Assembly: GCA_021740915.1 (NCBI GenBank)
Contig: JAIOYW010000001.1
Location: 248,001 to 312,000, forward strand
DNA length: 64,000 nucleotides
Reading direction: 5' to 3'
From: Ignavibacteriales bacterium
GTDB taxonomy: Bacteria; Bacteroidota; Ignavibacteria; Ignavibacteriales; Melioribacteraceae
Of the stretch, positions 49,565 through 63,682 are shown in pieces; within the stretch, counting starts at the first letter, position 1, and every line of letters starts with the position of its first letter. The translations under genes and the position numbers were made by a program. Below the pieces are notes generated by a model. The model ran no database searches. It was not told the origin of the DNA and was given only the letters and a program-made list of their open reading frames with translations.

Positions 49565-50191
49565 TTAGCAGCCTTCACGCTTTTTTCGGGCAGGTTTAGG
49601 TTTGCTAAGCGGAACATTGACAGGTGCCTGAATTTTGGGGAGGTCAGGAGATACAGTTTGTGAACCAACAGCATCGCTCTTAGGCTGTCCACCAAAATGA
49701 AAACTTATCTGTGATATTTTTGACCGCTCATTTTCTGACAATGCCTGTATCTCTGGATAGAGCACATTATTTTTCCAGCCGTCTAATCCCCCACTAAGGA
49801 TTCTGACATCTTTATATTTTGCGGCTTTTAATAAAATCCAGCTTTTACCAGATTCAAGATCATCTGAAGAGTATAGGATTATTCTCTGATTCTTCATAAG
49901 CTCTGAATTCAGCAAATTCATCGGTGAAATATTAATAGCGCCGGGTATAAAATATTGCAGATACTCCTCTTCCGCTCTTAAATCGACCAGAACGTACTCC
50001 TGATCTCCGGCAATCAATAATTCAGCCAATTCAGTTGGCGTTACTTTATCATGACCTTTAGTAGAGTTGAGTGAAAGTTCCATCGGATTTATTTTAAGCG
50101 TTGAGCTATATGGATCGCCCGCAAAAAGTGCAATCACTGCGAAAAAAAGGAGTAAAATGGCAAGGATCAATTCAATCTTTGGTTTTTTCAT
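49565..50191 (-). CDS. Membrane-anchored rhodanese-like protein without catalytic Cys, lone C-terminal Cys
   Basis: The 208-residue protein has an N-terminal membrane helix (about 7-25), a rhodanese domain (about 48-150, with VLVDLRAEEEYLQYFIPGAINI and LSGGLDGWKN) and a Pro/Lys-rich tail. The active-site loop reads LYSSDDLESG, so Ser stands where rhodaneses have the sulfur-carrying Cys. The only Cys in the protein is the very last residue (REGC). It is the last gene of the PsrABC-YeeE/YedE operon and overlaps its neighbour (ATGA). Sulfur binding or delivery by the tail Cys is a speculation. Confidence 0.8.
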   Translation of the reverse strand: MKKPKIELILAILLLFFAVIALFAGDPYSSTLKINPMELSLNSTKGHDKVTPTELAELLIAGDQEYVLVDLRAEEEYLQYFIPGAINISPMNLLNSELMKNQRIILYSSDDLESGKSWILLKAAKYKDVRILSGGLDGWKNNVLYPEIQALSENERSKISQISFHFGGQPKSDAVGSQTVSPDLPKIQAPVNVPLSKPKPARKKREGC

Positions 50192-50787
50192 TTTCCCTCC
50201 GCCTTCTTAGCCATTTTTTTCTCACCCCATTCAGCAGCAATAAACGCACCCAAGGCCATAATGGCAACTGCAAAAACCACAAATCCATATGAGAGATTAA
50301 AATATCCCGGTAAACTTACATTACCCATCGAACCTGAAACAAAGAAATTTTCGATAAGAGGGAATAGCTCACCGAACACAAAGACGCCGGCAGCAACGCC
50401 AATAAAATAAACGAGTCCGTCAATTCTGCCCGTGGCTAAAGACACGGCTGATGTGCCCGGGCAGTAACCCCCAATCACGAAACCAATTCCAAGAATCAGA
50501 CCACCGATAACTTGCGGTAGCATGAATGTATCTGTAGTATAAATCAGCGATATATCGAGAATTCCAAAAAGTCCAAAAAAATAAACTCCGAACATTGCTG
50601 TTACGATTGCACTGAACATTACTTTAAGCACCCGCATGTCAGTAAAATAAAATTGTGCCGCCAAAAGTCGTGCATTTCCAAAACCAGCTCTTTCAAGGGC
50701 AAATCCGAATCCTATCCCAATGACGAAGGCAAGAACAAGACTGACTTCATCTCCAAAAAACCCAAATTTGAATAGTGGGAAATTCAT
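50188..50787 (-). CDS. YeeE/YedE-family sulfur transporter, half-size protein 2
   Basis: The 199-residue polytopic protein of the YeeE/YedE (TsuA-like) family has typical glycine-rich helices. Its motif GFGFALERAGFGNARLL (about 21-37) is followed by GGYCPGTSAVSLATGR (about 102-117), holding the conserved Cys of the thiosulfate path. I start it at ATG 50787: this overlaps the upstream stop as ATGA and has AGGAGG eight bases before it. The frame is open up to 50856, but those codons lie in the neighbour. Together with the next half it should make one complete carrier for thiosulfate or a related sulfur compound. Confidence 0.85.
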   Translation of the reverse strand: MNFPLFKFGFFGDEVSLVLAFVIGIGFGFALERAGFGNARLLAAQFYFTDMRVLKVMFSAIVTAMFGVYFFGLFGILDISLIYTTDTFMLPQVIGGLILGIGFVIGGYCPGTSAVSLATGRIDGLVYFIGVAAGVFVFGELFPLIENFFVSGSMGNVSLPGYFNLSYGFVVFAVAIMALGAFIAAEWGEKKMAKKAEGK

Positions 50788-51356
50788 ATCCATAACCTCC
50801 TGACAAAATAGGCAGTCGCATAAGCACCGGCAAAAACCATCATCATAAATGCCCAACTGCCGAGATTAAGCAGCGCTCCTCCGGTTAAAGCCTGTCCACT
50901 GGTACAGCCCCTTGCGAGTTTTGCGCCAAATCCCATTAAGCCTCCGCCTATAAAAGCAAAAAACAACCTGTTTCTCACACTGATCCGAGGTCCTTTTTCA
51001 ACTGTCCTTTTTATCCTGTGGGCTAAAATTCCGGATAAGAAACCTCCAACCATTACCCCTAAAACCTCAAGTACAAGCCAGTCTTTAAATAGCCCGAAAG
51101 TTCCGCCTCCCAAATAGCTGCTGTAAAATGAATTAGCTTTGGCATGTTCAGGGGCTACTGAAGAAACTACAGTTGCAACTGCTGAAGATACCGCTCCTGA
51201 TGCACCGAGCCCTCTTCCGACGAGCACAAATGCTGCAAGAAGTACGAGTCCTAAAGCCACTCCGGTCACATATGGATTGGAATAAGCTTTCGGTGAATGA
51301 CTGACAGCCTCAGAATGATGTTTGTCTGATACCAGAATGTCACTTAATACTGACAT
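50784..51356 (-). CDS. YeeE/YedE-family sulfur transporter, half-size protein 1
   Basis: The 190-residue protein begins with a polar lead and one helix and ends with the YeeE/YedE motif GFGAKLARGCTSGQALTGGALL (about 147-168), which carries the second conserved Cys. Its partner is the coupled gene 50188-50787. In fused YeeE/YedE transporters both motifs are in one chain. The genes for a PsrABC-like enzyme directly upstream point to sulfur-compound uptake for, or release from, that enzyme. Confidence 0.85.
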   Translation of the reverse strand: MSVLSDILVSDKHHSEAVSHSPKAYSNPYVTGVALGLVLLAAFVLVGRGLGASGAVSSAVATVVSSVAPEHAKANSFYSSYLGGGTFGLFKDWLVLEVLGVMVGGFLSGILAHRIKRTVEKGPRISVRNRLFFAFIGGGLMGFGAKLARGCTSGQALTGGALLNLGSWAFMMMVFAGAYATAYFVRRLWI

Positions 51357-51375
51357 AATTATTCATCTCCTGTAA

Positions 51376-52323
51376 TTAAAAATGTGCGTTAAGCCAATGA
51401 GAATATTGGCCTGCTTCAACAATTAAAAATCTTAATATTAACCCGCCCATAATTACGAGAACCGGCGCAATGGCGGTATGCTGAACTTTGTGATTTACAG
51501 CCCTTGTCTGGATCAGCAATGGAATGATAATACCTAATCCAACGACAAACACCCAGAACGTAACTGCGTATGTACCCGTAAGCAGAAGATATGCGGCTTT
51601 TATCTGGACTTCAGTAGAGTTGAGCAAACCGGCTATAAAAAGGAAAATCACAACAAGTTCGATTGACAGGAAAATATTATCTGCACGGGCAAGAGTTTCT
51701 CTTTCTACTACATTTCTTGCAATCATATGGACAAAGGCGGCTGCGGCTGATAATCCTGAGATGAGGAAAAGAACAGCAAGCAGTGATGAGTTCCACAATG
51801 GCCGCGAGACCATTGAACTTAATAAAACCCCTGTATAAACACCTAAACCTAATCCTAAGACAATGTTACCATATGAGGTTGCATTCAAAATGAACCGATT
51901 TTCCCGAAACTTTTTACTCAGATTTCCAGGATTTTTTATATACTTATTCAAATACTCCGGCGGTGCCATCAAAATATTCGCTATAAGCACGGGATATACC
52001 AGAAGCAATATCCAGGCGCCCCAGGACATTGGCGACTTTATCTCAAATGTTGTATAAAGGCGCCAGAAATGAATTTTGTATTCAAGATCGAGAAAAAGAG
52101 CGAACATTCCTATCGATAATAGAATGAAACTGATACGGGGAAGAATCCGGCAGCTACAATCAGGCTCAGTTATTCTTCCTTTCATAATTGAATATCCCGA
52201 AATTATCATCATTCCGGCAACTATTCCGCCAATGAAGAGATAAACCGGGATTTCCCAGCCCCAAACATGAAATATAGGATCAATCAAATGATTGCTCCTT
52301 GATGTTGTAATCTCATTTAACAT
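51376..52323 (-). CDS. psrC: PsrC/NrfD-like membrane subunit
   Basis: The 315-residue polytopic protein has eight to nine helices of the NrfD/PsrC family. WGWEIPVYLFIGGIVAGMMIISGYS (about residues 21-45) is the standard first helix, and LYTTFEIKSPMSWGAWILL (about 90-108) carries the quinone-site region. It anchors the PsrAB pair and exchanges electrons with menaquinol. It lies between the Fe-S subunit and the YeeE/YedE genes. Confidence 0.92.
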   Translation of the reverse strand: MLNEITTSRSNHLIDPIFHVWGWEIPVYLFIGGIVAGMMIISGYSIMKGRITEPDCSCRILPRISFILLSIGMFALFLDLEYKIHFWRLYTTFEIKSPMSWGAWILLLVYPVLIANILMAPPEYLNKYIKNPGNLSKKFRENRFILNATSYGNIVLGLGLGVYTGVLLSSMVSRPLWNSSLLAVLFLISGLSAAAAFVHMIARNVVERETLARADNIFLSIELVVIFLFIAGLLNSTEVQIKAAYLLLTGTYAVTFWVFVVGLGIIIPLLIQTRAVNHKVQHTAIAPVLVIMGGLILRFLIVEAGQYSHWLNAHF

Positions 52324-52326
52324 AAT

Positions 52327-52866
52327 TTACTCCAGATAAAATATATTCGGTTTCGTACCGGCGGCAGGGTGCTGAACACTGCTCTTCCTTGATGCCACGA
52401 GTTTACTTACCTCACTGTTTGGGTCATCAAGATCACCAAAGTGCATACAGTAAGTCGGACATACTGAAACACATGCTGGGTCCTCTCCATTTTCTACTCT
52501 GTGGATACAAAATGTACATTTGTCCGCGTATCCATCCGGATGAATGTACCTCGCATCATAGGGACAAGATGCAACACAGGCTTTACACCCTATACAGAGA
52601 TCATGATCAACCAGTACTACTCCCCCAAAATCGTGTATATGACTTGCACCTGTCGGGCAGCAGCTCACACAGGGAGTATCTGAACAGTGATTACATCTCT
52701 CTGTTCGGATTTGCATAGTAAGGTTCGGGAAAGAACCACTTACTTCAGTTGTAATCCAATCTCTGTCGAATCCTTCGGGAAGATTATTTTCCGTCTTGCA
52801 GGCTACAACACAATCCATACAACCAACACATTTTCTCGTATCAATAGCCATACCTAATCTTGACAT
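52327..52866 (-). CDS. psrB: PsrB-like iron-sulfur subunit with four 4Fe-4S clusters
   Basis: The 179-residue ferredoxin-like subunit has four Cys clusters: CVGCMDCVVAC, CNHCSDTPCVSCC, CIGCKACVASC and the CTFC-CVSVCP pair. It has no export signal and would be carried across the membrane with PsrA by the Tat system. It links PsrA to the membrane subunit electronically. Four bases separate it from each neighbour. Confidence 0.94.
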   Translation of the reverse strand: MSRLGMAIDTRKCVGCMDCVVACKTENNLPEGFDRDWITTEVSGSFPNLTMQIRTERCNHCSDTPCVSCCPTGASHIHDFGGVVLVDHDLCIGCKACVASCPYDARYIHPDGYADKCTFCIHRVENGEDPACVSVCPTYCMHFGDLDDPNSEVSKLVASRKSSVQHPAAGTKPNIFYLE

Positions 52867-52870
52867 GTTT

Positions 52871-55072
52871 TCAGGCCTCCTCGAAAGTTACAAAGTTGTT
52901 GTTCAGTCCTGTTCCGCCCATAAGTGGATCGGTTGAGCAGTTTTTCAATAAAAGAGAATCACTTGCACCTTTTTTATAAGTGCTCTTGAGCATTTTGGAA
53001 GTTTGACCAAAACCATGCACAAGGAATACACAATCAGGTCGTATTCGCTCAGTCACTTTTACCTTAACAGGCTCACTTTTTACTCCATAAGTATTCGCCA
53101 ATCTGATTTTATCGCCTGATTTGTAACCATATTTCATAGCAACGCTGGTATTTACCCAAACTTCATTTTCTTCATAAAGATCCGACAATAGATGATTTGA
53201 CTGAGTCCGGCTGAATGTGTGAACTGGTGAGCGTCCATAGATCAGACGCAGATATCCCGGCGGATTTTCTTTTGGTTTTTCAAATTCAGGGACAGGCGAA
53301 AACCCGGCTGCCTGAAGCTGCGGAGAATAAAATTCGATTTTTCCGCTGGGAGTATAGAAAACCGGTTCGATTCCATCCTCAAAGAAAATCGGAGTCTCTT
53401 CCCCTTTAAGGATTCCTTTTTTCTTGAGCTCATCATAAGAGTATCCGGCAGCACCAAGTCTTTTCTTAAAATATTCTTCGATATTTGTCCAGGGATAATA
53501 GTGTCCTAAACCAAGTTTAATTGCTAATTCACGTGCAATCCACCAGTTGGGTTTTGTATCTCCCGGTGAACTGATGACAGGTTGCCTGAGCGAGATAAAT
53601 GGTTTTTTGAATGGTGTGATACTTAAGTCATCAAATCTTTCCAGATAAGTGTCTTCGGGCAGCACAACATCAGCCCAACCAGCAATTTCACTTGGTACAA
53701 CATCAACAACAACCATCAAATCAAGATTTTGAATTGCCTTAATTGTCTCTTCACGATCAGGTAAAGCCTGGATCAGATTTGTGGCATAAACCAACCAACC
53801 TTTAATCGGATATGGTTCACCGGTAATCGTAGCTTCTCTTATTCCGGTTGTAATTGTCTCTGAGGCAAACGGATACTTTTTCCCGGGATTATCAACCTTA
53901 CCTCTTTCACCATGCGGATATTCAGGATATGGGTAATTTGGAATATCAAGTGATGCCGGGAAAAAGAAACCACCTTTACGTCCCCAACTGCCGAGAAGTG
54001 CATTTAGCAAGGCAATTGCCCTGCTTCGTTGAGCATCGTTACCATACCAGGTAGTATGTCTTCCAGGATGAACAAGTGTACGCGGTTTATTTTTTGCCAT
54101 TTCAATTGCAGTTGCTCTTATGATTTCAGGGTCAATCCCGGTTTGAATATAAGCCCATTCCGGGGTATTCAGGGAGATCAACTGGCTGAATTGCTCGAAT
54201 CCGAATCCGTACTTTTCGACATATTCCTTATCATACAATCCCATACTCACAATTACATTCATCCAGGCAAGAATTAATGCAGTGTCCGTTCCTGGTTTTA
54301 TTGGCAGATAATATTTGGCTTTCCCTGCTGCAACGCTGAAACGAGGATCGACAACAATGAGGGTACCCTTATTCTCAATAAACCTTGAAAATTCCTGCAC
54401 CTGAGTATTATGCATATTTTCACCAAGATGAGAACCGATGAGTACAAGACAGTCTGCATTTTCAATATCTGTCCTCTCCGGCGAGCCAACGGGTTCACCA
54501 AAAGTCAGTTCAAACCCGACATCCCTGGGACCCCGGCACTGAGCAAAGGATGGTGCTGCTACATTGGGAGAACCATACGCTTTCAGTGTGTGTTTAAGAA
54601 AATTTCCACCAATTCCATGACTGAACAGAGCCACTGATTCCGGACCATACTTTGCTTTAATTTTATTCATTTTTTCAGCGATGTACGATAAGGCTTCATC
54701 CCAGGTGACTGCAACCCATTGATCTTCACCTCTTTCATTCTTCCTTATGAGGGGTGATTTTAACCGGTCCTTATCGAAATGGGCTCCGATTCCTCCAGTT
54801 CCTCTGGGGCATAAACGTCCGTTACTAAGCGGGTCTTCGGGATTTCCTTCAATCTTCCATAACTCACCGTCTTTAAGATATGCTATAGCTCCGCATTTCC
54901 AAAAACAGATATCGCATGTGGTAGGTATTTTTTCGATGCCCTTACCTTTTCCGGTTTTTGCGTTGATATATTCAGCGCTTTTTGCAAGAGGTTCCGAAGC
55001 ACTGACTGCAGCTGCTGCCCCAAGCCCGAAACCTGTAATCTTCAAGAATCTTCTTCTAGATACTGTTATCAT
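52871..55072 (-). CDS. psrA: PsrA/PhsA-like molybdopterin catalytic subunit
   Basis: This 733-residue Mo-bisPGD enzyme has a Tat signal (SRRRFLKIT at residues 5-13) and an N-terminal 4Fe-4S site (Cys53, 56, 60 and 88). A candidate Mo ligand, Cys179 in FAQCRGPRD, sits where polysulfide, thiosulfate and tetrathionate reductases have theirs. The length agrees with PsrA/PhsA. The reaction may be reduction of polysulfide or thiosulfate, or the reverse sulfur oxidation; sulfur-handling genes downstream support a sulfur substrate. Arsenate and other oxyanion reductases of the same family cannot be excluded from the sequence. It starts right after the MerR gene (one base between stop and start). Confidence 0.88.
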   Translation of the reverse strand: MITVSRRRFLKITGFGLGAAAAVSASEPLAKSAEYINAKTGKGKGIEKIPTTCDICFWKCGAIAYLKDGELWKIEGNPEDPLSNGRLCPRGTGGIGAHFDKDRLKSPLIRKNERGEDQWVAVTWDEALSYIAEKMNKIKAKYGPESVALFSHGIGGNFLKHTLKAYGSPNVAAPSFAQCRGPRDVGFELTFGEPVGSPERTDIENADCLVLIGSHLGENMHNTQVQEFSRFIENKGTLIVVDPRFSVAAGKAKYYLPIKPGTDTALILAWMNVIVSMGLYDKEYVEKYGFGFEQFSQLISLNTPEWAYIQTGIDPEIIRATAIEMAKNKPRTLVHPGRHTTWYGNDAQRSRAIALLNALLGSWGRKGGFFFPASLDIPNYPYPEYPHGERGKVDNPGKKYPFASETITTGIREATITGEPYPIKGWLVYATNLIQALPDREETIKAIQNLDLMVVVDVVPSEIAGWADVVLPEDTYLERFDDLSITPFKKPFISLRQPVISSPGDTKPNWWIARELAIKLGLGHYYPWTNIEEYFKKRLGAAGYSYDELKKKGILKGEETPIFFEDGIEPVFYTPSGKIEFYSPQLQAAGFSPVPEFEKPKENPPGYLRLIYGRSPVHTFSRTQSNHLLSDLYEENEVWVNTSVAMKYGYKSGDKIRLANTYGVKSEPVKVKVTERIRPDCVFLVHGFGQTSKMLKSTYKKGASDSLLLKNCSTDPLMGGTGLNNNFVTFEEA

Positions 55073-55073
55073 T

Positions 55074-55523
55074 TTATTTTTCTGCTTGTACTTTAATCGA
55101 TGATTTTATTTTAATGCAGGTTGAATAATCTTTATAAACAATACACTCCCGACAGTCAGTATTCAGGCATTTTTTATCTTTCTTATTCAACATCCAGCAA
55201 GGTTCCAAAACGCTCTCAGTTAAAAAATGCTGACAATTGTTCCTTTCCTCAGTTGTGCACGGAATTAATGTCCAGCAAGGAATAAGGGAATAAATTGCTT
55301 TAATACCCGGAATACTGATTTTTTTTTCATTGATAGTCTTTCTAATACAAATAATGCGTTCAAGATCAGATTTAGAATAGAGTCTCTGATTACCAGAACT
55401 TTTAGCGGAAAGAATCAGTCCTTCTTTTTCATACATTCTTAGTGTGGGAACAGAAACATTAAGAATCTCCGCTGCTCTCCCAATTGGTATTATCGGTTTG
55501 TCTAAAATATTTTCAATATTCAT
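55074..55523 (-). CDS. MerR-type regulator with cysteine-rich sensor tail
   Basis: The 149-residue protein has a MerR DNA-binding domain (about 10-78, IGRAAEILNVSVPTLRMYEKEGLI). Its roughly 65-residue tail contains nine Cys (CWTLIPC, NNC, EPC, KKC, TDC, REC and STC). Such a tail could hold an Fe-S cluster or sense metal or sulfur species. I start it at ATG 55523: a good promoter ends seven bases before that codon, and a longer frame up to 55571 would place the promoter inside the coding part. It is the first gene of the Psr operon, which it very probably controls. Confidence 0.82.
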   Translation of the reverse strand: MNIENILDKPIIPIGRAAEILNVSVPTLRMYEKEGLILSAKSSGNQRLYSKSDLERIICIRKTINEKKISIPGIKAIYSLIPCWTLIPCTTEERNNCQHFLTESVLEPCWMLNKKDKKCLNTDCRECIVYKDYSTCIKIKSSIKVQAEK

Positions 55524-55530
55524 TGCATTT

Positions 55531-55559
55531 ATTATGATAGCTATATTTATAACTATCAA
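55531..55559 (-). promoter_or_regulatory. Promoter of the merR-psr operon, possibly leaderless
   Basis: On the minus strand TTGATA (55559-55554) and CATAAT (55536-55531) match the sigma-70 hexamers at five of six bases each and are 17 bases apart. Only seven bases lie between the -10 box and the ATG at 55523, so the mRNA would begin at or next to the start codon. No ribosome binding site is present there, which agrees with a leaderless message. Confidence 0.65.
55536..55557. promoter_or_regulatory. Palindromic operator across the spacer of the merR-psr promoter
   Basis: The 22-base sequence GATAGCTATATTTATAACTATC is an imperfect palindrome: GATAG/CTATC ends and TATA blocks match, with one broken pair next to each end block and a mismatched centre. 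It spans the spacer and touches both promoter hexamers, the typical place for a MerR-family operator. MerR promoters usually have a 19-20 base spacer; this one has 17, so the mechanism may differ. Confidence 0.6.
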
Positions 55560-55691
55560 CTTTCCTGCCAATTGCTTTACACCCTAAAATTAATGATATT
55601 TTAGTTGTGATGATTAACTTTTTCTCATTTTTGAGAGACGGAGTATTATATCCGGTAAAAGAGTTATATCCGATAATGAATTTTTATCCAA

Positions 55692-58280
55692 TTATTGACA
55701 TTCGTTTTTCCTGCGAGAATAATACACATCAAAATTATTCAGTAAATTTATTCGGAAGGATTGCTCCTTATGGCAGCTTATGCAAGCACCCGCGGTTATC
55801 ATCTTTTCTATCATCACTGAATCGGGTGAAAAGAAAAAATCCCTTGTTGATTTTCCGACTGAAAATGATTCTGTAGCTATCCAGGCATCTTCGGGGAGTC
55901 CATCATTTTTATTAGACTCGTAATATGGATAATTTTTTATTCTATATTTCCCATTTTCAAAGTAGAATTCCAGTCTTCCCCTGCCAAAACCCATAGCGAA
56001 CGGGTCGTTGTGACAACTTTCACAATCTCTTCCGGAAGCAGTAATTGTATGCGGCAAAACTGGAGAATATAATCTTTGGAATATGGGTTTTTCACCCTCC
56101 ATCCCATCAATACTAAGCACCATTCCAGGCACAGCCGGGTATATACCTTCCCTGTTGCGAATATTCCTGAAAATCCCCAAAGCTGGAGGATATGGTCCGG
56201 AGAACCCCGTACTTTCGAGCCAGGCGCCTTTTATATATGATCGTTTGAGATGATCATAAGCCTCTTCCCCGCCTTCAAATGTTGTATGACACCCAACACA
56301 TACAGGTGCCCATGAAGTATGACAGGAACTGCAGCTTAAGCGCCCGTGGGGTTTATTCCCGATGCAAACGGGAGATAGGGCTTTGAGAGACATTTTTTTA
56401 CCCGAGATTTTTCCGAGAAAATTAATTTCACCGTTTTCGACTATCATGGATAAAATCGCTCTGCCTGATTTTTGTTCAACAAGAAAAGATGCTTTGTCCG
56501 AAACCTGGTTCCTGATTTTTATTAATTTGCCGGATTCGGGATCAATATCTTTAAATTTGATCGTTTGTTTATTAGAATGACAATCTTCACAGCTTATCGT
56601 GACCGCTTCCTCTTTATGCCTGTAAATTGTACCATCACCCATCAGTTCATAAGAACTATGGCAGTCAATGCAATTCATGCCTTTCTCAAAATGCACATCG
56701 GGGATATGTTTCAGAAAATATCTCCCATCGCTAAGTGTATCCGTCAATTCAGAAGGATTTTTATTTAGGGTTAATTCATCAATTTCAGCCCATCCCCTGA
56801 AATTCATTGAAATCCTGCCTGATCTTGCATGACAGCCAAAACACATACTATCATCAGTATCAATTGTCAAAGCCGGATGCATCGAATCCCCTGTTCTTAT
56901 TTCCAATCCCCCTTGATATTTGAGGTGACAAGCCAGACAACCGCCTCCCCTATCTGAATCTGCGGCTCTACCAGGAAGTATCTTTTCATTGCCAAGATGG
57001 CAGCCGACGCATAACTGCCGCAGGTGATTATCCGAAGGAGTGTTTCCGGTTTCTGCAGCATAAAAAACAGTGTCTGCGGGAAAACTATCTGCAAATACTT
57101 TTTTATTAACTCTGATTAATCCGTTCAATGAATTCATCATGGAATAATTCACACGCATTACCAGGTCCTGATGGCATGAGGAGGTTCCGCAGGAAAAATC
57201 CGAATTCACCAGATTACCTGGAATTTTTATTAAACCCGAGTGCGCTGCACTTTTATCTAAAGAAAATGGATTACCAAAATGGCATCTGAAACACCCAATA
57301 TCTGCGGGTGAATGAAATTTTGAAAACCCGGTCATCTTGTTGTGACAGTTTAAACACGCCTCTGGAAAGTTATTCAAACGCGGAAATACTGTGTCTTTAT
57401 TTGAAGTTTGAGAATTGATAATCGAGTTTATTAGTGCAGGATTATAAACAAGCGGATCAGTTTTTGGCAACTTATCAGTGGCATTTCCAAATAATGAAAA
57501 ATAGATAAGTATAATAATTGAGCAGACTGTAGGTAAAAAAACAAATAAATTACCCAATCTTTCTATAAGATAGTGCCGCTTCAAAATTAGCCACAGTGCA
57601 ATAAAAATTAAACTAATAATAACCCCTGAACCGAGGATAAGAATCTGAATAATCGGAAAATGATCACCTTCAATCACGCCCAGGTTATTGTCGATAATTG
57701 GTAAGTATCCTGGCGAGAATATCAGAGGTGGAATAAAAGCTATTAAAAGATTGCCATAAATATTCTTATATGAGTTGAAAATATAATTGAAGGGGAATAA
57801 AACATAAATCATTATGAACAGCAGAACAGGAAGGAGCAGATGACTAATAAAAATCAATTGCTGAAAAACGGAATTCTCCCCAAAATTAGTGGCAGAATAT
57901 CCTCCAATGTCTATCAATTTTCCAATTGAATTCTCGATCAGATTTAAATCGAGAAGAGAAGAATAATCTCCCCTGAGCAGATGGCCTGTCAGGAAAATTA
58001 AACCAATAATAAATAAAATAAAACTGGCTGAAAACAGATACTCTGGAATTTTATTCTTTTCGTAAGATGCGAAAAATAAGGCTGCTGATAATAATATTAA
58101 GAGAGAACTCCAGTAATGAAGGGATCGAATATATGAAAAAAACGGGCTGCTTATTAATTGAGAAGATATTGAGATAAATATTTCTTTGAATTCAATACTG
58201 ATTAGCAAATATAATCCGGAGAGGACGGAAACGACAACAGCAAGTAAAAAAAACGAAAGCATCTTTTTGTAATTACTCAT
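55692..58280 (-). CDS. Large multihaem cytochrome c with cytochrome-b-like membrane part
   Basis: The 862-residue protein has seven or so helices (residues 1-265) and then a multihaem region (about 305-850). I count eleven CXXCH sites plus one CGTSSCH (CX4CH) that may bind a twelfth haem. The membrane part resembles the N-terminal half of cytochrome b: SLHYWSS with His55 in one helix, GHLLRGD with His100, and FISHLLLP with His147. The second His pair of cytochrome b (about 14 residues on) is absent, so at most one haem b of that type would fit. A quinol-to-multihaem electron path is inferred. It lies between mobA and the merR-psr operon. Confidence 0.8.
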   Translation of the reverse strand: MSNYKKMLSFFLLAVVVSVLSGLYLLISIEFKEIFISISSQLISSPFFSYIRSLHYWSSLLILLSAALFFASYEKNKIPEYLFSASFILFIIGLIFLTGHLLRGDYSSLLDLNLIENSIGKLIDIGGYSATNFGENSVFQQLIFISHLLLPVLLFIMIYVLFPFNYIFNSYKNIYGNLLIAFIPPLIFSPGYLPIIDNNLGVIEGDHFPIIQILILGSGVIISLIFIALWLILKRHYLIERLGNLFVFLPTVCSIIILIYFSLFGNATDKLPKTDPLVYNPALINSIINSQTSNKDTVFPRLNNFPEACLNCHNKMTGFSKFHSPADIGCFRCHFGNPFSLDKSAAHSGLIKIPGNLVNSDFSCGTSSCHQDLVMRVNYSMMNSLNGLIRVNKKVFADSFPADTVFYAAETGNTPSDNHLRQLCVGCHLGNEKILPGRAADSDRGGGCLACHLKYQGGLEIRTGDSMHPALTIDTDDSMCFGCHARSGRISMNFRGWAEIDELTLNKNPSELTDTLSDGRYFLKHIPDVHFEKGMNCIDCHSSYELMGDGTIYRHKEEAVTISCEDCHSNKQTIKFKDIDPESGKLIKIRNQVSDKASFLVEQKSGRAILSMIVENGEINFLGKISGKKMSLKALSPVCIGNKPHGRLSCSSCHTSWAPVCVGCHTTFEGGEEAYDHLKRSYIKGAWLESTGFSGPYPPALGIFRNIRNREGIYPAVPGMVLSIDGMEGEKPIFQRLYSPVLPHTITASGRDCESCHNDPFAMGFGRGRLEFYFENGKYRIKNYPYYESNKNDGLPEDAWIATESFSVGKSTRDFFFSPDSVMIEKMITAGACISCHKEQSFRINLLNNFDVYYSRRKNECQ

Positions 58281-58342: not shown

Positions 58343-59008
58343 TCAAACACTCTCCCTATGAGAATTCAATAGAAGCTGATAATCTTCAGGGTAGTTAATA
58401 TTCAGGAATTTCATAGATGGTTCTGTGCTGAAATCGACACTTTCAACTTTAGCAAATTCAAAGAGAGCTTTCATTGATCTCCTCTTGTGATCAGAATTCC
58501 TGAGAAGATTTTCAAAATAAATCAATAGCTTTTTACTATATATTGCACATAATGGTTGAATTTCTCCACTAACAACGGCTGTGGCAATCTCACTGCCCTC
58601 CTGAACTGAATATAATTTTTGAAATATCCCAATATCAATTAAAGGGAAATCACATCCCACCACAAAATTTTTTTCATTTGATGAATTTATTAGTCCCGCA
58701 TGTATCCCGGCAAGCGGTCCCGAATGCGGATAAATATCTTCAACCTGTAAAAAAGACGCATCCAGGTCTCTTTGAATATTTGTTGAAATGATTGTTTTAT
58801 TGAAATAGGGGCTTAGCGATTTAATGAGGTGTGATAAAAAAGTGTCTCCCCTAAACTCGAGTTGGCTTTTATCGCTCTTCATCCTGGAACTTTGCCCACC
58901 CGCAAGAATAATCAGGCTAATATCAGGATAAAATTCTCTCGCTTCTGGTTTTATACTTTGCAAAATTTTCCGTGAAGTTATAAAATATTCTGAATAATCA
59001 CCCTTCAA
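58343..59008 (-). CDS. mobA: Molybdenum cofactor guanylyltransferase
   Basis: The 221-residue protein has a MobA fold beginning with LIILAGGQSSRMKSDKSQLEF (in parts, about residues 32-52). It also shows EDIYPHSGPLAGIHAGL (about 91-107) and VVGCDFPLI (about 118-126). MobA attaches GMP to molybdopterin to give the dinucleotide cofactor that PsrA-type enzymes need. The start is TTG at 59008, overlapping the stop of the upstream amidohydrolase/HD gene (TTGA). A roughly 30-residue N-terminal extension precedes the nucleotide-binding motif. Confidence 0.88.
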   Translation of the reverse strand: MKGDYSEYFITSRKILQSIKPEAREFYPDISLIILAGGQSSRMKSDKSQLEFRGDTFLSHLIKSLSPYFNKTIISTNIQRDLDASFLQVEDIYPHSGPLAGIHAGLINSSNEKNFVVGCDFPLIDIGIFQKLYSVQEGSEIATAVVSGEIQPLCAIYSKKLLIYFENLLRNSDHKRRSMKALFEFAKVESVDFSTEPSMKFLNINYPEDYQLLLNSHRESV

Positions 59009-60267
59009 AAAAGATGCTCTTTTTTTGCAATGATTTTTGTTGCAACTTCAAGAGCGTTATTAATCATTTCCGGATAAATACCATATATCTGAAAATATTC
59101 CGCACTCTCTGTGTACTTTCGGAGCAATTTGCTGCATTTATGAGGATCGGTTATCTCAGTTAATTTTTCGATGTTGATTAGTCTGTCAGCAGCTTTAACG
59201 AGTTTGGCAATTTTATCTTCGCTAATTATTCGGTAGTATTCGTCCGGTGATAATTTTTTTGAACTTTCCAGGATTTTCTGTTTCACCGATAATTTCAGCA
59301 CAGTATTTGCCACAGTCTGACCAAAATATTTAGCTATTTCATATGGTTCTGTTAGAGTATCTTCAATGATATCATGAAAATATCCGGATAAAACAGCGGT
59401 TCTGATCTCTTCATCGTTTTCCAGATAAGCAGGAGCTAATGCCTTGATTCGTTCAATCACTGGGATGATATGCGCGATATAGTAATCAAGTCCGTTGTAA
59501 TACAATCCATGATATTTCTTAATGGAATATTCAGTGGCGGATGGGAATTCTTCGCTACCTTTGTAATAACGACTTAATTCATGTGCTGAACTAAACAGTG
59601 AATCACTTAGCATCTGAAAAAACTTACTGAGATAATCTGTCGATTGATCAAAAAGTTTCTGATTTATTTCCAGTTCAATTCCTGAATACATACTATCTGA
59701 AAATCTACTTCTGAGATAGCTTGTGAATCCATCAGAAACCCCTTTATAAGGGTAATTCATTCGTATTTTAAGATCCGGCATCACTTCAGATATTTTTTTT
59801 TGCCATTTTTGCGATATTTCCTTCTCATTAGCTCTTGAAGGATCATAAAGAAAAGTCACGTCTGCATTTCGAATTTTGCCGTTCAATACCGGAGTAAATG
59901 AATGAACAGAAATATGAATCGCACGTTCCTCTGAGTTAATAATTCCCTTGAGATTTTCTTCAACCATGGCCCGATAAGGAGAATAGTATTTGCTAACAAG
60001 AATGTTCTTTAACCTGGGATCAAGGTTTGATGAAAAATTCGAAAAAACCGATCGATTCTTCAAAGATCTGTTAGCATCAATTGCCAACCTTGTAAATTCA
60101 TAGTTAAAAGCTGGGGCTTTAAATTTTGCGGCAAATGAAGAAAATAATCCTGCGGCTCCCCTATCGTATCCACGATGTGACACTAAAATTTCCGGATCTA
60201 TATTAAACTCATTCCTTATTTCATCAGGAATACGATTTCCAAAATGCTCACAACTAAAAAGAAGCAT
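59005..60267 (-). CDS. N-formylglutamate amidohydrolase-like domain fused to SpoT-type HD domain
   Basis: The 420-residue protein has an N-terminal N-formylglutamate amidohydrolase domain (about 1-235): FSCEHFGNRIP, VSHRGYDRGAAGL, the Arg of DANRSLKNRS and ISVHSFTP are all family landmarks. A RelA/SpoT-like HD phosphohydrolase domain follows (about 255-400): YYIAHIIPV, YFHDIIEDT and KAADRLINIEKL give the metal ligands H, HD and D. No synthetase domain is present. Residues 235-255 form a linker. It stands between the GCS2 ligase and mobA with overlaps on both sides. Its substrate is unknown; removing a group from the cluster's amide product is plausible. Confidence 0.85.
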   Translation of the reverse strand: MLLFSCEHFGNRIPDEIRNEFNIDPEILVSHRGYDRGAAGLFSSFAAKFKAPAFNYEFTRLAIDANRSLKNRSVFSNFSSNLDPRLKNILVSKYYSPYRAMVEENLKGIINSEERAIHISVHSFTPVLNGKIRNADVTFLYDPSRANEKEISQKWQKKISEVMPDLKIRMNYPYKGVSDGFTSYLRSRFSDSMYSGIELEINQKLFDQSTDYLSKFFQMLSDSLFSSAHELSRYYKGSEEFPSATEYSIKKYHGLYYNGLDYYIAHIIPVIERIKALAPAYLENDEEIRTAVLSGYFHDIIEDTLTEPYEIAKYFGQTVANTVLKLSVKQKILESSKKLSPDEYYRIISEDKIAKLVKAADRLINIEKLTEITDPHKCSKLLRKYTESAEYFQIYGIYPEMINNALEVATKIIAKKEHLF

Positions 60268-61502
60268 CAGTCCACCTTATATAATTTACCGTTGGCGAGA
60301 TTTATTGATAATTCATTATAAATATCCGGAATACTATTTATACCACCCTTATTAATCTCATTTAAAATCCTGGTGGCGAGCGAACCATTGGCAATAATTT
60401 TTTCAATAACAGGTGCGTAAGAATCTTTCAAAAATCTCCTGGAACGTAACGATAAATAAATATGTTCAAGTATTTCAGCGGCTATTTTTTTGCTGCCGGT
60501 AATTCCAAAAAAATCCAGATATTCCTCATCATCAATTATTGCTTTCTCCGCATTTTTAATAGTGCTTAGCAAAATTTGAGATAACCGGATTTCATTAAAA
60601 GATTTTTGGAGATAATAATTACCCCATTTCCCCTCAGTAATTGATTTAATCAATCCGATAATAAAATCAAGAATAGCCAGGTCGGCCAGCGGTGTCTCCT
60701 GGATGTCCATAATCCTGATCTCGATCGAGCCTCTGTCAAATCTCGCAATGGCACCTCTGGAATTCAGCCACTCATATTTCATAATATCATCTTTATCAAA
60801 AGGTTCGATGTCATGATAGATTTTTTTAAAAATCTTATTGGAATAATCGTTTAATGAAAATGCCTGCTCAGGAATAACTGCTCCCGTTAAAGAAGGTATC
60901 CTCGCCTGGTTTTTCCGGTAGTATTCCAGGCGTGTGTCGCGAAATCCGGTAATAACGCCATCAAGTATCGGCGTACTGGCTGCAAGAGCAGGAATCAGGG
61001 GAAGCACCATCCGGATAGCCGCATGAAGTAAACCAAATTCCTCGTCATTCCCGAAGGGAAGATTCAGATGTGTACTTTGTAAATTTGACCATCCGTGCCC
61101 CCGACAGTCAAAAATCCGATTGTATGCATCATAAATCTCGTTTGAATCATGCGGCCATAATTTTGTTTCTTTGTGCGGATCCATTAAAGGATGGGCACCC
61201 GAAGGTAAAAGTTTGGCATTAAATTTTTTAAGGATATTATTCGCACGTTTAATGTTTTCAAGGAATTTGTTTTCAAACCCTTCGTATTTATATACAGGAT
61301 CGGTGGTTTTAAATTCGATGACATGAAGAACGAGTTCATTGGACCAGCATATTTCTCCGAATTTGATATCCGATGTAATCTCTCCGGCTATTTCTTTCAT
61401 CAGAATATCGCTCATTGGCACGACTGCCAGAGTCGAATCATTAACGATCATATACTCAAGTTCAATGCCAAAAACTTCAAACATGGTGTAAGGGTATTTC
61501 AT
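60267..61502 (-). CDS. GCS2-type carboxylate-amine ligase (glutamate-cysteine ligase superfamily)
   Basis: The 411-residue protein belongs to the GCS2/YbdK-like branch of the glutamine-synthetase-fold ligases. FGIELEYMIV (about 10-19) holds the first metal-binding Glu residues. NELVLHVIEFKT (about 55-66), GAHPLMDP (about 102-109), LQSTHLNLPFGND (about 141-153) and the RGSIEIRIMDIQETP strand (about 256-270) complete the active site. These enzymes form an amide bond between an amino acid and an amine using ATP. The start overlaps the ATP-grasp stop (ATGA). The substrate is not known. Confidence 0.88.
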   Translation of the reverse strand: MKYPYTMFEVFGIELEYMIVNDSTLAVVPMSDILMKEIAGEITSDIKFGEICWSNELVLHVIEFKTTDPVYKYEGFENKFLENIKRANNILKKFNAKLLPSGAHPLMDPHKETKLWPHDSNEIYDAYNRIFDCRGHGWSNLQSTHLNLPFGNDEEFGLLHAAIRMVLPLIPALAASTPILDGVITGFRDTRLEYYRKNQARIPSLTGAVIPEQAFSLNDYSNKIFKKIYHDIEPFDKDDIMKYEWLNSRGAIARFDRGSIEIRIMDIQETPLADLAILDFIIGLIKSITEGKWGNYYLQKSFNEIRLSQILLSTIKNAEKAIIDDEEYLDFFGITGSKKIAAEILEHIYLSLRSRRFLKDSYAPVIEKIIANGSLATRILNEINKGGINSIPDIYNELSINLANGKLYKVD

Positions 61503-62971
61503 AAACTAATTTCTCTCACACGGCGTAAATTCTCAATTCTCTCCTTAAATGATTTCATTATCCTGAGATATAAATGTTCTCTCATTATACTATCCTCTAT
61601 TCCTGCATCGATACTGGGATTATCATTAATTTCAATAATTAAAGCATTTTTATTTATTTCTTTAACATCAACTCCGTATAAACCATCTCCGATTAAATTG
61701 GCAGCCTTCAATGCAGTTTTAAGAATGTTCTTTGGTATTTCATAAACCGGCACTGCATCGAACATTCCATATTTATCATCGCCCTTACCTTTCCAATTAT
61801 AGATCTGCCAGTGATCCTTTGCCATATAATATTTACATGCGAAGATTGGTTCTCTATCCAGGATTCCGATTCTCCAGTCAAAATCTGAATAAAGAAATTC
61901 CTGGGCTATAATCAAATCTGAACTCTCCATCATTCGGTCAATTTCCTTCGTCAGAGATTCCCGGTTTTCAACCTTAACAACACCTTTTGAAAAAGAACTG
62001 TCTGGTTGTTTCAAAACACATGGGAATCCGATAGTTCCCTCCACTGTCTCTCTCGTGTCCTTGTGAACGATTATAGTTCTTGGTGTAGCAATTTTTGCTC
62101 TATTTAACAATTCCGCAAGAAATACCTTATTCGCACACTGAAGTATTGATTTTGGATCATCAATTACCACGAGTCCTTCTGTAAATGCCCTTCTGGAAAA
62201 CCTGTATGTGTGATGATTAACGTTAGTTGTTTCCCGGATAAACAAAGCGTCAAATTCTGGTATTCTGCTGAAATCATCCCGTGTGATAAGTTCGGTTCTT
62301 AATCCAATGGATTCAGCGGCGTCCATAAAATTTGTAATTGCTTTTTTGTTCGAAGGTGGCTCTTTCTCTTCGTTATTAAGTAATATTGCCAAATCATACA
62401 TTGCCATTGGCAGTTTTGCAGTGTAAATTCGTTTTTTTGTAAAATAAGATTTCGCAAACTGCTCAACAAATTCCCGGTGATTTTCTGGAATTTCATTAAC
62501 GGGTACGGGTGAAATGTTCATCAGGTTCCAGCGTTTTGTAAATGTAAACTGTGCTCTGATAAGCGGAGCCTGAAAAAGATTATATAACTGCGCTGCCAGA
62601 TGATCATACTGTTTAGCTGTATTTTGGCCAAAATAGATGCTAAGAGTAAAGTTCTGAGATTTGATATTTTTCAAACTTTTCTGAATTAGTTCATCAAGAT
62701 CATCTGAGATTATCCGAACGATTGTCTGTGATTTTAGGTCCTGCATTGTTGAAACATTCGGAAAAACCCTGTGCCCGCGTGCTTCAGCAAGCAAAGAGAC
62801 ATAGTAACCGGTAGCTTGGTAACGATATGAGCGGCAGAGATTGAACACCCGTGCATTTTTGATTTCAGCATACTTTGGATCGGTCAGATAGTTCTTCGCT
62901 GCCACTATCTCGACATCATCGATCCCGAAATTCCAGTCTTTTGGATAGTTAACTACAATAAGAGTTCTCAT
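61499..62971 (-). CDS. RLAN-domain RimK-type ATP-grasp ligase
   Basis: The 490-residue protein has an N-terminal RLAN domain (about 1-190; MRTLIVVNYPKDWNF, RSYRYQATGYYVSLLAEARGHRVFP in parts) and a RimK-like ATP-grasp domain (about 210-480). The latter shows KTPRT-like ATRTIIVHKDT, FPCVLKQPDSSFSKGVV and the metal-binding IIEINDNPSIDAG (about 450-462). RimK-type enzymes add amino acids to carboxyl groups of proteins or metabolites. It is the central gene of the cluster, with the peptidase nine bases upstream and the GCS2 ligase overlapping it downstream. Confidence 0.9.
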   Translation of the reverse strand: MRTLIVVNYPKDWNFGIDDVEIVAAKNYLTDPKYAEIKNARVFNLCRSYRYQATGYYVSLLAEARGHRVFPNVSTMQDLKSQTIVRIISDDLDELIQKSLKNIKSQNFTLSIYFGQNTAKQYDHLAAQLYNLFQAPLIRAQFTFTKRWNLMNISPVPVNEIPENHREFVEQFAKSYFTKKRIYTAKLPMAMYDLAILLNNEEKEPPSNKKAITNFMDAAESIGLRTELITRDDFSRIPEFDALFIRETTNVNHHTYRFSRRAFTEGLVVIDDPKSILQCANKVFLAELLNRAKIATPRTIIVHKDTRETVEGTIGFPCVLKQPDSSFSKGVVKVENRESLTKEIDRMMESSDLIIAQEFLYSDFDWRIGILDREPIFACKYYMAKDHWQIYNWKGKGDDKYGMFDAVPVYEIPKNILKTALKAANLIGDGLYGVDVKEINKNALIIEINDNPSIDAGIEDSIMREHLYLRIMKSFKERIENLRRVREISL

Positions 62972-62980
62972 AAAATTTTA

Positions 62981-63682
62981 TTATTTTGGAGTAATAATTA
63001 GTAAATTAGCATCATAAGTGACAATACCAAGCATAATTGAGTGGATAAGGCGGTTAGCTCTGACTGAATAATAATTGTTCCCTGAGACAGGATTTGCAGC
63101 AAATGGATCTGCTACGATGATGTGTTGTTTTTCATTGTCATAGCCACAAAGAACAACGAAATGTCCCATCGGTAATCCCCTGACATCATCAAAAATCGAC
63201 GTAACCCCATCGGGAGAATATTCTCTTTTTTCATTATAAAGATAAGTTGCACTCAATCCGGTTAACACAGGAACACCTGACTCAAAATATTTTCTTAGCA
63301 AATGTATAGTCAGATCTTTAAACAAAACTTTTCCCCCTAACTGCAGGAACTCAAGATAGGCATCGCTTGCCATTTGTAACTTTTTACTTCGTTTATGTTT
63401 TTTTTGTTCTGTCAGTTTTTCTGAAAGATCAACATTTCCTTTTCCAAACCATGATGGGTCGAATAATTTTACATTAAAAGTATATATTTTTGCCTTATAG
63501 CCTCTTTTGAGCGCGTGATTTCCAAGAATTACTGCGAGAGTTCCGCCTTCCTCTAATGCTTGAATTTCCGATATAACTGTTTGTAAAGCAATATTATCTC
63601 CGTAAAAATTATAAACCGAGTGTAAACTCGTAGGTCCACAAGACACATCATCGGGTTGAGGCAAGATTTTTAATGGAATCAT
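62981..63682 (-). CDS. C39-like (papain-fold) cysteine peptidase
   Basis: The 233-residue protein starts with MIPLKILPQPDDVSCGPTSLHSV, where Cys15 in the DVSCGPTSL motif is the nucleophile of C39-like peptidases. The catalytic His is in LPMGHFVVLCGYD (about 171-183) and the Asp in IIVADPF (about 189-195). It has no signal peptide or transporter domain, so it acts in the cytoplasm. It begins the cluster and would be expected to cut, or work in reverse on, the peptide or amide product of the two ligases. The 109 bases upstream separate it from a divergent gene and should contain both promoters. Confidence 0.85.
   Translation of the reverse strand: MIPLKILPQPDDVSCGPTSLHSVYNFYGDNIALQTVISEIQALEEGGTLAVILGNHALKRGYKAKIYTFNVKLFDPSWFGKGNVDLSEKLTEQKKHKRSKKLQMASDAYLEFLQLGGKVLFKDLTIHLLRKYFESGVPVLTGLSATYLYNEKREYSPDGVTSIFDDVRGLPMGHFVVLCGYDNEKQHIIVADPFAANPVSGNNYYSVRANRLIHSIMLGIVTYDANLLIITPK

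Follow-up and report, generated by a model that had tools for sequence, protein, structure and literature searches.

What would a bacterium make with two amide ligases and two amide hydrolases encoded one behind the other? The question is raised by a compact cluster at positions 58343 to 63682 of a 64,000-nucleotide stretch of DNA from an Ignavibacteriales bacterium (contig JAIOYW010000001.1), the whole of which is called the window here. A sequence-only reading of the window had described five tightly packed minus-strand genes; their coordinates, gaps and overlaps were all reproduced in our analysis, and the domain names given to them agreed with Pfam profile matches. The core of the cluster is a cassette of four genes, in the order C39-like peptidase, RLAN/RimK ATP-grasp ligase, GCS2 ligase and FGase, and the recurrence of this order across phyla supports a reading of the two ligases and two hydrolases as a conserved unit. 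We tentatively propose that the cassette encodes the enzymes for making, inside the cell, a short amide-linked metabolite, probably of the gamma-glutamyl type. The genes and domains, by window position, are as follows.

62981..63682, minus strand: C39-like papain-fold cysteine peptidase, 233 aa, first gene of the cassette (Pfam Peptidase_C39_2, 1.6e-9)
61499..62971, minus strand: RLAN domain (residues 25-171) followed by a RimK/LysX-type ATP-grasp ligase, 490 aa (Pfam RLAN, 1.9e-52; RimK, 1.5e-11)
60267..61502, minus strand: GCS2/YbdK-type carboxylate-amine ligase, 411 aa (Pfam GCS2, 9.9e-24)
59005..60267, minus strand: FGase-HD fusion gene, 420 aa (Pfam domains and HD matches)
59653..60267, minus strand: FGase domain of the fusion, residues 1-205, N-formylglutamate amidohydrolase-like and presumably a zinc amidohydrolase (Pfam FGase, 9.7e-22)
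59005..59550, minus strand: HD domain of the SpoT/MESH1 (small alarmone hydrolase) type, fused to FGase (matches of 2e-5 to 0.003, and motifs)
58343..59008, minus strand: MobA-like molybdenum cofactor guanylyltransferase, adjacent and judged to lie outside the cassette (NTP_transf_3, 7.7e-30; NCBIfam MobA, 1.3e-31)

The C39 and RLAN genes are separated by a 9-base gap, the RLAN and GCS2 genes overlap by four bases (ATGA), and the GCS2 and FGase-HD genes meet at TGATG.

Conservation and gene order of the cassette

RLAN has a patchy distribution: 8 of the 97 relatives carry it, as do 44 of the 395 genomes surveyed from the phylum. Gene content was determined by six-frame profile searches at 116 RLAN loci from approximately 16 phyla: 35 came from the surveys of relatives and phylum, a GTDB genome scan supplied 80 named ones, and the window completed the set. 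This set includes three pairs of one contig sampled twice, and the 80 named loci were chosen by likeness to cassette-type RLANs and are therefore biased toward the cassette. The complete series of C39, RLAN, GCS2 and FGase was found at 56 loci, C39-RLAN-GCS2 at 27, RLAN-GCS2-FGase at 11, RLAN-GCS2 at five, C39-RLAN at five (three of them cut by contig ends), RLAN-FGase at one and RLAN alone at 11. In total, GCS2 followed RLAN at 99 loci, C39 preceded it at 88, and FGase occurred at 68; the order of the genes was constant at all 116, with no exception. Among the 35 family-based survey loci, GCS2 adjoined RLAN in 28, and the remaining seven were GNAT-RLAN fusions.

Because the same order recurs across phyla, the four-gene arrangement did not arise by chance. 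The sequence-only reading had allowed that these genes might lie scattered in close relatives; this was checked, and the ligases and hydrolases kept their order there. Pairwise distances of the four proteins, computed over 54 full cassettes, were correlated (r 0.52-0.78, permutation maxima 0.15), which shows that the cassette genes travel together. In a quick tree of RLAN, the window copy grouped with Ignavibacteriota, in line with its nearest named relative. A fixed-order unit found in so many phyla points to a metabolite or modification common among bacteria, and since cultured strains carry the cassette (in Pontibacter, Rufibacter, Marivirga, Bizionia, Nitrosomonas, Thiobacillus and Blastopirellula), its product can be sought directly. 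A few frames were split in two (RLAN and GCS2 of L056, GCS2 of L098, C39 of L097), reflecting frameshifts or sequence errors.

Folds and catalytic residues

Like the gene order, the folds and catalytic positions are shown by the analysis, and the latter were invariant in the alignments of all four cassette proteins. In the first ligase, the RLAN domain scored 177.4 bits (Pfam cut-off 25) and the RimK domain behind it 44.7 (cut-off 21), with 64.3 bits against the RimK family alpha-L-glutamate ligase model TIGR00768, below its cut-off of 143.4. The predicted structure had a pLDDT of 79.5. A fold search with the whole model returned matches that all came from the ATP-grasp half (residues 192-481), which aligned over 260-270 residues with ArgX and LysX at Z 25-26 and with RimK at Z 24-25.

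The GCS2 protein scored 84.6 bits against PF04107 (cut-off 21), and fell below cut-off against both YbdK (TIGR02050, 46.7 against 176.4) and the cyanobacterial-type glutamate-cysteine ligase (TIGR02048, 40.8 against 249.05). Its model (pLDDT 96.3) matched YbdK at Z 39.1 and a plant glutamate-cysteine ligase at Z 34.8 as a whole-length fold, with approximately 14 % identity across the structural match; other glutamate-cysteine ligases followed at Z 23-26 and Dop/PafA at Z 16-21, and Foldseek concurred. The modelled fold is thus clearly nearer to the small-molecule gamma-glutamyl ligases than to PafA/Dop. Residues E14 and E16 (E-x-E), R254, R257 and E261 were invariant in 63 sequences.

In the C39-like protein, Q9, C15, H174 and D192 were invariant in 12 cassette homologues and correspond to the papain-like Q/C/H/D catalytic set. 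Ten of these 12 members matched DUF3335 weakly (best 1.6e-4), and four matched phytochelatin synthase very weakly (best 0.011). The FGase domain scored 78.6 bits against PF05013 (cut-off 28.9), and its nearest solved relative was Atu2144 (2odf, 4.3e-32); the invariant residues C6-E7-H8, H118, H122 and E198 of its alignment presumably form a metal site.

Alternative partners and the proposed product

The Pfam RLAN entry mentions a GNAT/papain-like neighbour. In our phylum survey, GNAT was fused to RLAN at seven loci (frames of 649-730 aa), and in a Verrucomicrobia metagenome-assembled genome (L082:738-6273) a separate GNAT gene, homologous to the fused one, stood just upstream of RLAN. GCS2 was absent beside RLAN in the seven fusions and in the Verrucomicrobia locus, and the fusion-type GNAT had no match in any GCS2-linked locus. 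The GNAT fusion L043 and the Verrucomicrobia locus grouped (support 99*) inside the cassette-type sequences of the RLAN tree, and this nesting suggests that one capping enzyme may have replaced the other; a divergent fusion, L044, sat on a long branch and its placement is unsure. Alternation of GNAT and GCS2 is as expected for two ways of capping an amine, and it is mainly for this reason that a two-step scheme yielding a capped peptide is preferred. At the Verrucomicrobia locus, lysA- and dapA-like genes follow RLAN and argG lies upstream.

The genes that flank the cassette differ between lineages. In a tally of 172 flanking proteins, no Pfam family exceeded four members in either half, and no transporter recurred beyond scattered MFS. 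Short open reading frames within 700 bases of the cassettes, considered as precursor peptide genes, were common only to close relatives and were set aside. That neither a conserved precursor peptide nor a recurring transporter was seen argues, weakly, for a small product that stays in the cell. A link to arginine or carbamoyl-phosphate metabolism was also rejected, on too few independent cases: an arginine operon lay directly upstream of the cassette only in Pontibacter, argG occurred together with lysA and dapA at the one Verrucomicrobia locus, carA lay near the cassette in one pair of relatives, and pyrB was confined to a single closely related group.

With substrates, reaction order and hydrolase roles taken from the enzyme families, GCS2 would activate a side-chain carboxylate, for which the gamma-carboxyl of glutamate is the likeliest candidate, and couple it with the amine group of an amino acid, X. 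In the next step the ATP-grasp ligase would activate the carboxylate left free on this intermediate and attach a second amino acid, Y, while the RLAN domain would hold the acceptor; Y may be glutamate, as RimK and LysX suggest by analogy. Of the two hydrolases, FGase would cut an N-acyl amide, and the thiol enzyme of the C39 type would cut or transfer a peptide bond; together they could trim, recycle or limit the product. In the window organism, the HD domain may tie this turnover to the level of alarmone or nucleotide.

A hint toward gamma-glutamyl chemistry, and nothing more, came from EgtC-like genes beside the cassette. These have the class II amidotransferase fold and scored approximately 190-204 bits, under the EgtC equivalog cut-off of 218.65. 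They were downstream and convergent in L107:13436-14491 and L120:13432-14541, and upstream and divergent in L091:1265-2119 and L113:8208-9095; the two pairs fall in different parts of the RLAN tree and represent two separate lineages. EgtC was rejected as a core partner, since the window genome has none and the matches in its family were no more than weak.

Several points weigh against the proposed metabolite unit. None of the four enzymes has a known substrate, and the matches of GCS2 and ATP-grasp to NCBIfam models were all under cut-off. The window genome lacks the EgtC-like neighbour, which is why this neighbour counts only as a hint. FGase was absent beside about two-fifths of RLAN loci and C39 beside one-quarter, so neither is obligatory. 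The correlation of distances is equally expected from joint descent alone, and does not separate joint function from it. A more specific version, in which a single cassette in approximately 16 phyla both makes and recycles a gamma-glutamyl-capped (with GNAT, N-acyl-capped) dipeptide-like metabolite whose turnover, in the window organism, is tied to alarmone through FGase-HD, is somewhat unlikely. If true, it would mean that a capped dipeptide-like metabolite spread over those phyla has so far never been isolated.

Alternative explanations

The main rival to a small metabolite is protein modification, in which the RLAN ATP-grasp and GCS2 ligases would attach amino acids to a host protein and C39 and FGase would remove them. 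RimK itself modifies a protein, ribosomal protein S6, with RimB as its partner protease (PMC12239564). The strong RimK match of the ATP-grasp half fits this arrangement, the extra N-terminal RLAN domain could bind a protein, and PafA and Dop, of which PafA acts with Pup, share the GCS2 fold (Z ~21). However, GCS2 lies much nearer to YbdK and the glutamate-cysteine ligases; a Pup-like ligase belongs to the same superfamily, but its fold score was lower (Z 20-21, compared with 39 for YbdK). No conserved target or tag gene was found beside the cassette, where no search aimed at Pup itself was made, and we consider protein modification unlikely.

A thiol or glutathione-like pathway, with GCS2 acting as GshA, ATP-grasp as GshB, a gamma-glutamyl-cysteinyl product and a phytochelatin synthase-like C39, is less likely again. 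The pairing of GCS2 with ATP-grasp follows the logic of GshA and GshB, the GCS2 fold is close to the glutamate-cysteine ligases, and both the EgtC-like neighbours in two lineages and the very weak phytochelatin synthase matches in 4 of 12 C39 members speak for it. The ATP-grasp half, however, is more LysX/RimK-like than glutathione synthetase-like, and BshC of the bacillithiol pathway was found in the window genome and, regardless of whether they carry the cassette, in 92 of the 97 relatives. There is consequently no missing thiol for the cassette to supply, and the idea of such a gap as the reason for its presence was dropped.

N-acetylglutaminylglutamine amide (NAGGN) synthetase combines an acetyltransferase with an ATP-grasp domain, a general layout that the GNAT-RLAN-ATP-grasp fusions share. 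A compatible solute in the style of NAGGN, made as an N-acyl or gamma-glutamyl dipeptide, would also suit the several carrier genera that are marine or salt-tolerant (Pontibacter, Marivirga, Bizionia), but numerous carriers come from freshwater, soil or the gut, and an osmolyte seems quite improbable. Identity of the GNAT fusions with NAGGN synthetase itself was rejected, its model being absent among the matches listed.

A five-gene unit that takes in MobA and the HD domain, tied to the molybdenum cofactor or to the adjoining sulfur and cytochrome genes, is very improbable: gene spacing in the window, and the molybdopterin oxidoreductase and multihaem cytochrome behind MobA on the same strand, speak for it, but no MobA or HD lies beside the other cassettes examined, and their flanks vary with lineage.

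Relation to known systems

According to passages in PMC4431377 and PMC10318531, a comparative study (Iyer et al. 2009, Mol Biosyst 5:1636) had already predicted neighbourhoods with two ligases that broadly resemble this one. The passage in PMC4431377, citing that study, mentions multiple cases in which distinct ATP-grasp ligases, or unrelated ligases such as those of the COOH-NH2 ligase and GNAT superfamilies, are linked in operons, and states that operon-linked ligases often act in successive ligations; the survey in PMC10318531, citing the same study, notes that DUF3335 is often fused to GNAT domains. The RLAN / DUF3335-GNAT neighbourhoods likewise place an RLAN ATP-grasp near a papain-like peptidase, with linked ligases that would work one after the other, whereas the window cassette pairs RLAN with GCS2 and a free C39, with no GNAT. 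The open-access literature, which is part of the whole, yielded no experimental work on this cassette and named no product for it. The view that the pathway is undescribed calls for caution, since the cited passages trace the prediction of neighbourhoods of this general type to 2009.

Among characterized enzymes, the cassette GCS2 shares its fold and Pfam family with YbdK and the plant-type glutamate-cysteine ligase, but is encoded in an operon with ATP-grasp and two hydrolases. The ATP-grasp half matches RimK, LysX and ArgX at Z 24-26, but the cassette ligase has the additional N-terminal RLAN domain, and no RimB or LysW was seen in the cassette. The ergothioneine pathway (EgtA, a GCS2 ligase, and EgtC, a gamma-glutamyl hydrolase) has the GCS2-type ligase in common with the cassette, as well as the EgtC-like neighbours in two lineages; these neighbours, however, score under the equivalog cut-off, and the flanks of the loci that bear them showed no recognisable EgtB or EgtD.

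The HD domain

The HD_4 match of the fusion protein was 20.9 bits, below the curated cut-off of 27.2. The same stretch also matched RelA/SpoT, with values of 2e-5 to 0.003 against SpoT/Rel proteins and small alarmone hydrolases of solved structure, and its HD-x2-ED and D-R-x-x-N motifs align with those of the solved hydrolases. Because of the RelA/SpoT and alarmone hydrolase matches, the HD domain is considered real despite the sub-cut-off score. It shares motifs and sequence matches with the small alarmone hydrolases (MESH1/SpoT HD), but differs from them in its fusion to FGase within an amide-ligase operon, a combination unique in the survey. No HD domain was detected in the other 115 RLAN loci, and the earlier assignment of this domain to the pathway was not upheld, as it occurred with no other cassette examined. 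As part of the proposal as a whole, we tentatively regard the fusion as a late addition confined to the copy of the window genome.

Standalone HD relatives of approximately 190 aa were found in genomes of the same family. The best match among the relatives (35 %, 9e-29) lay within a multi-domain protein with an open frame of 2255 aa (L150), and another match (L152, open frame 1651 aa) adjoins genes resembling restriction-modification specificity subunits. These two proteins look mobile-element-like, and the HD domain of the FGase fusion may have been drawn from such a source.

MobA and the adjoining molybdoenzyme genes

The sequence-only reading had also coupled MobA to the cassette. A TTGA overlap with FGase-HD is possible if the first of two in-frame TTG codons is the MobA start; the next one, at 58963, is also possible and would leave a gap of approximately 41 bases, so translational coupling is not established. 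Nor was MobA borne out as a part of the pathway, since it was absent beside all other cassettes examined for it. Its score (110 bits) is below the TIGR02665 equivalog cut-off of 151.85, and it is still the best MobA match in the genome. Downstream, on the same strand, come genes for a multihaem cytochrome and for a molybdopterin oxidoreductase. The position of MobA is sufficiently explained by its rank in the genome and by these adjoining molybdoenzyme genes, which it more likely serves, rather than the cassette.

The region downstream of MobA, at 49565-58280, encodes a PhsA-type molybdopterin oxidoreductase with a 4Fe-4S subunit and a membrane subunit, two YeeE-like transporters, a rhodanese-like protein, a MerR regulator and an ExtM-like multihaem cytochrome, and is probably a cluster for the respiration of sulfur compounds.

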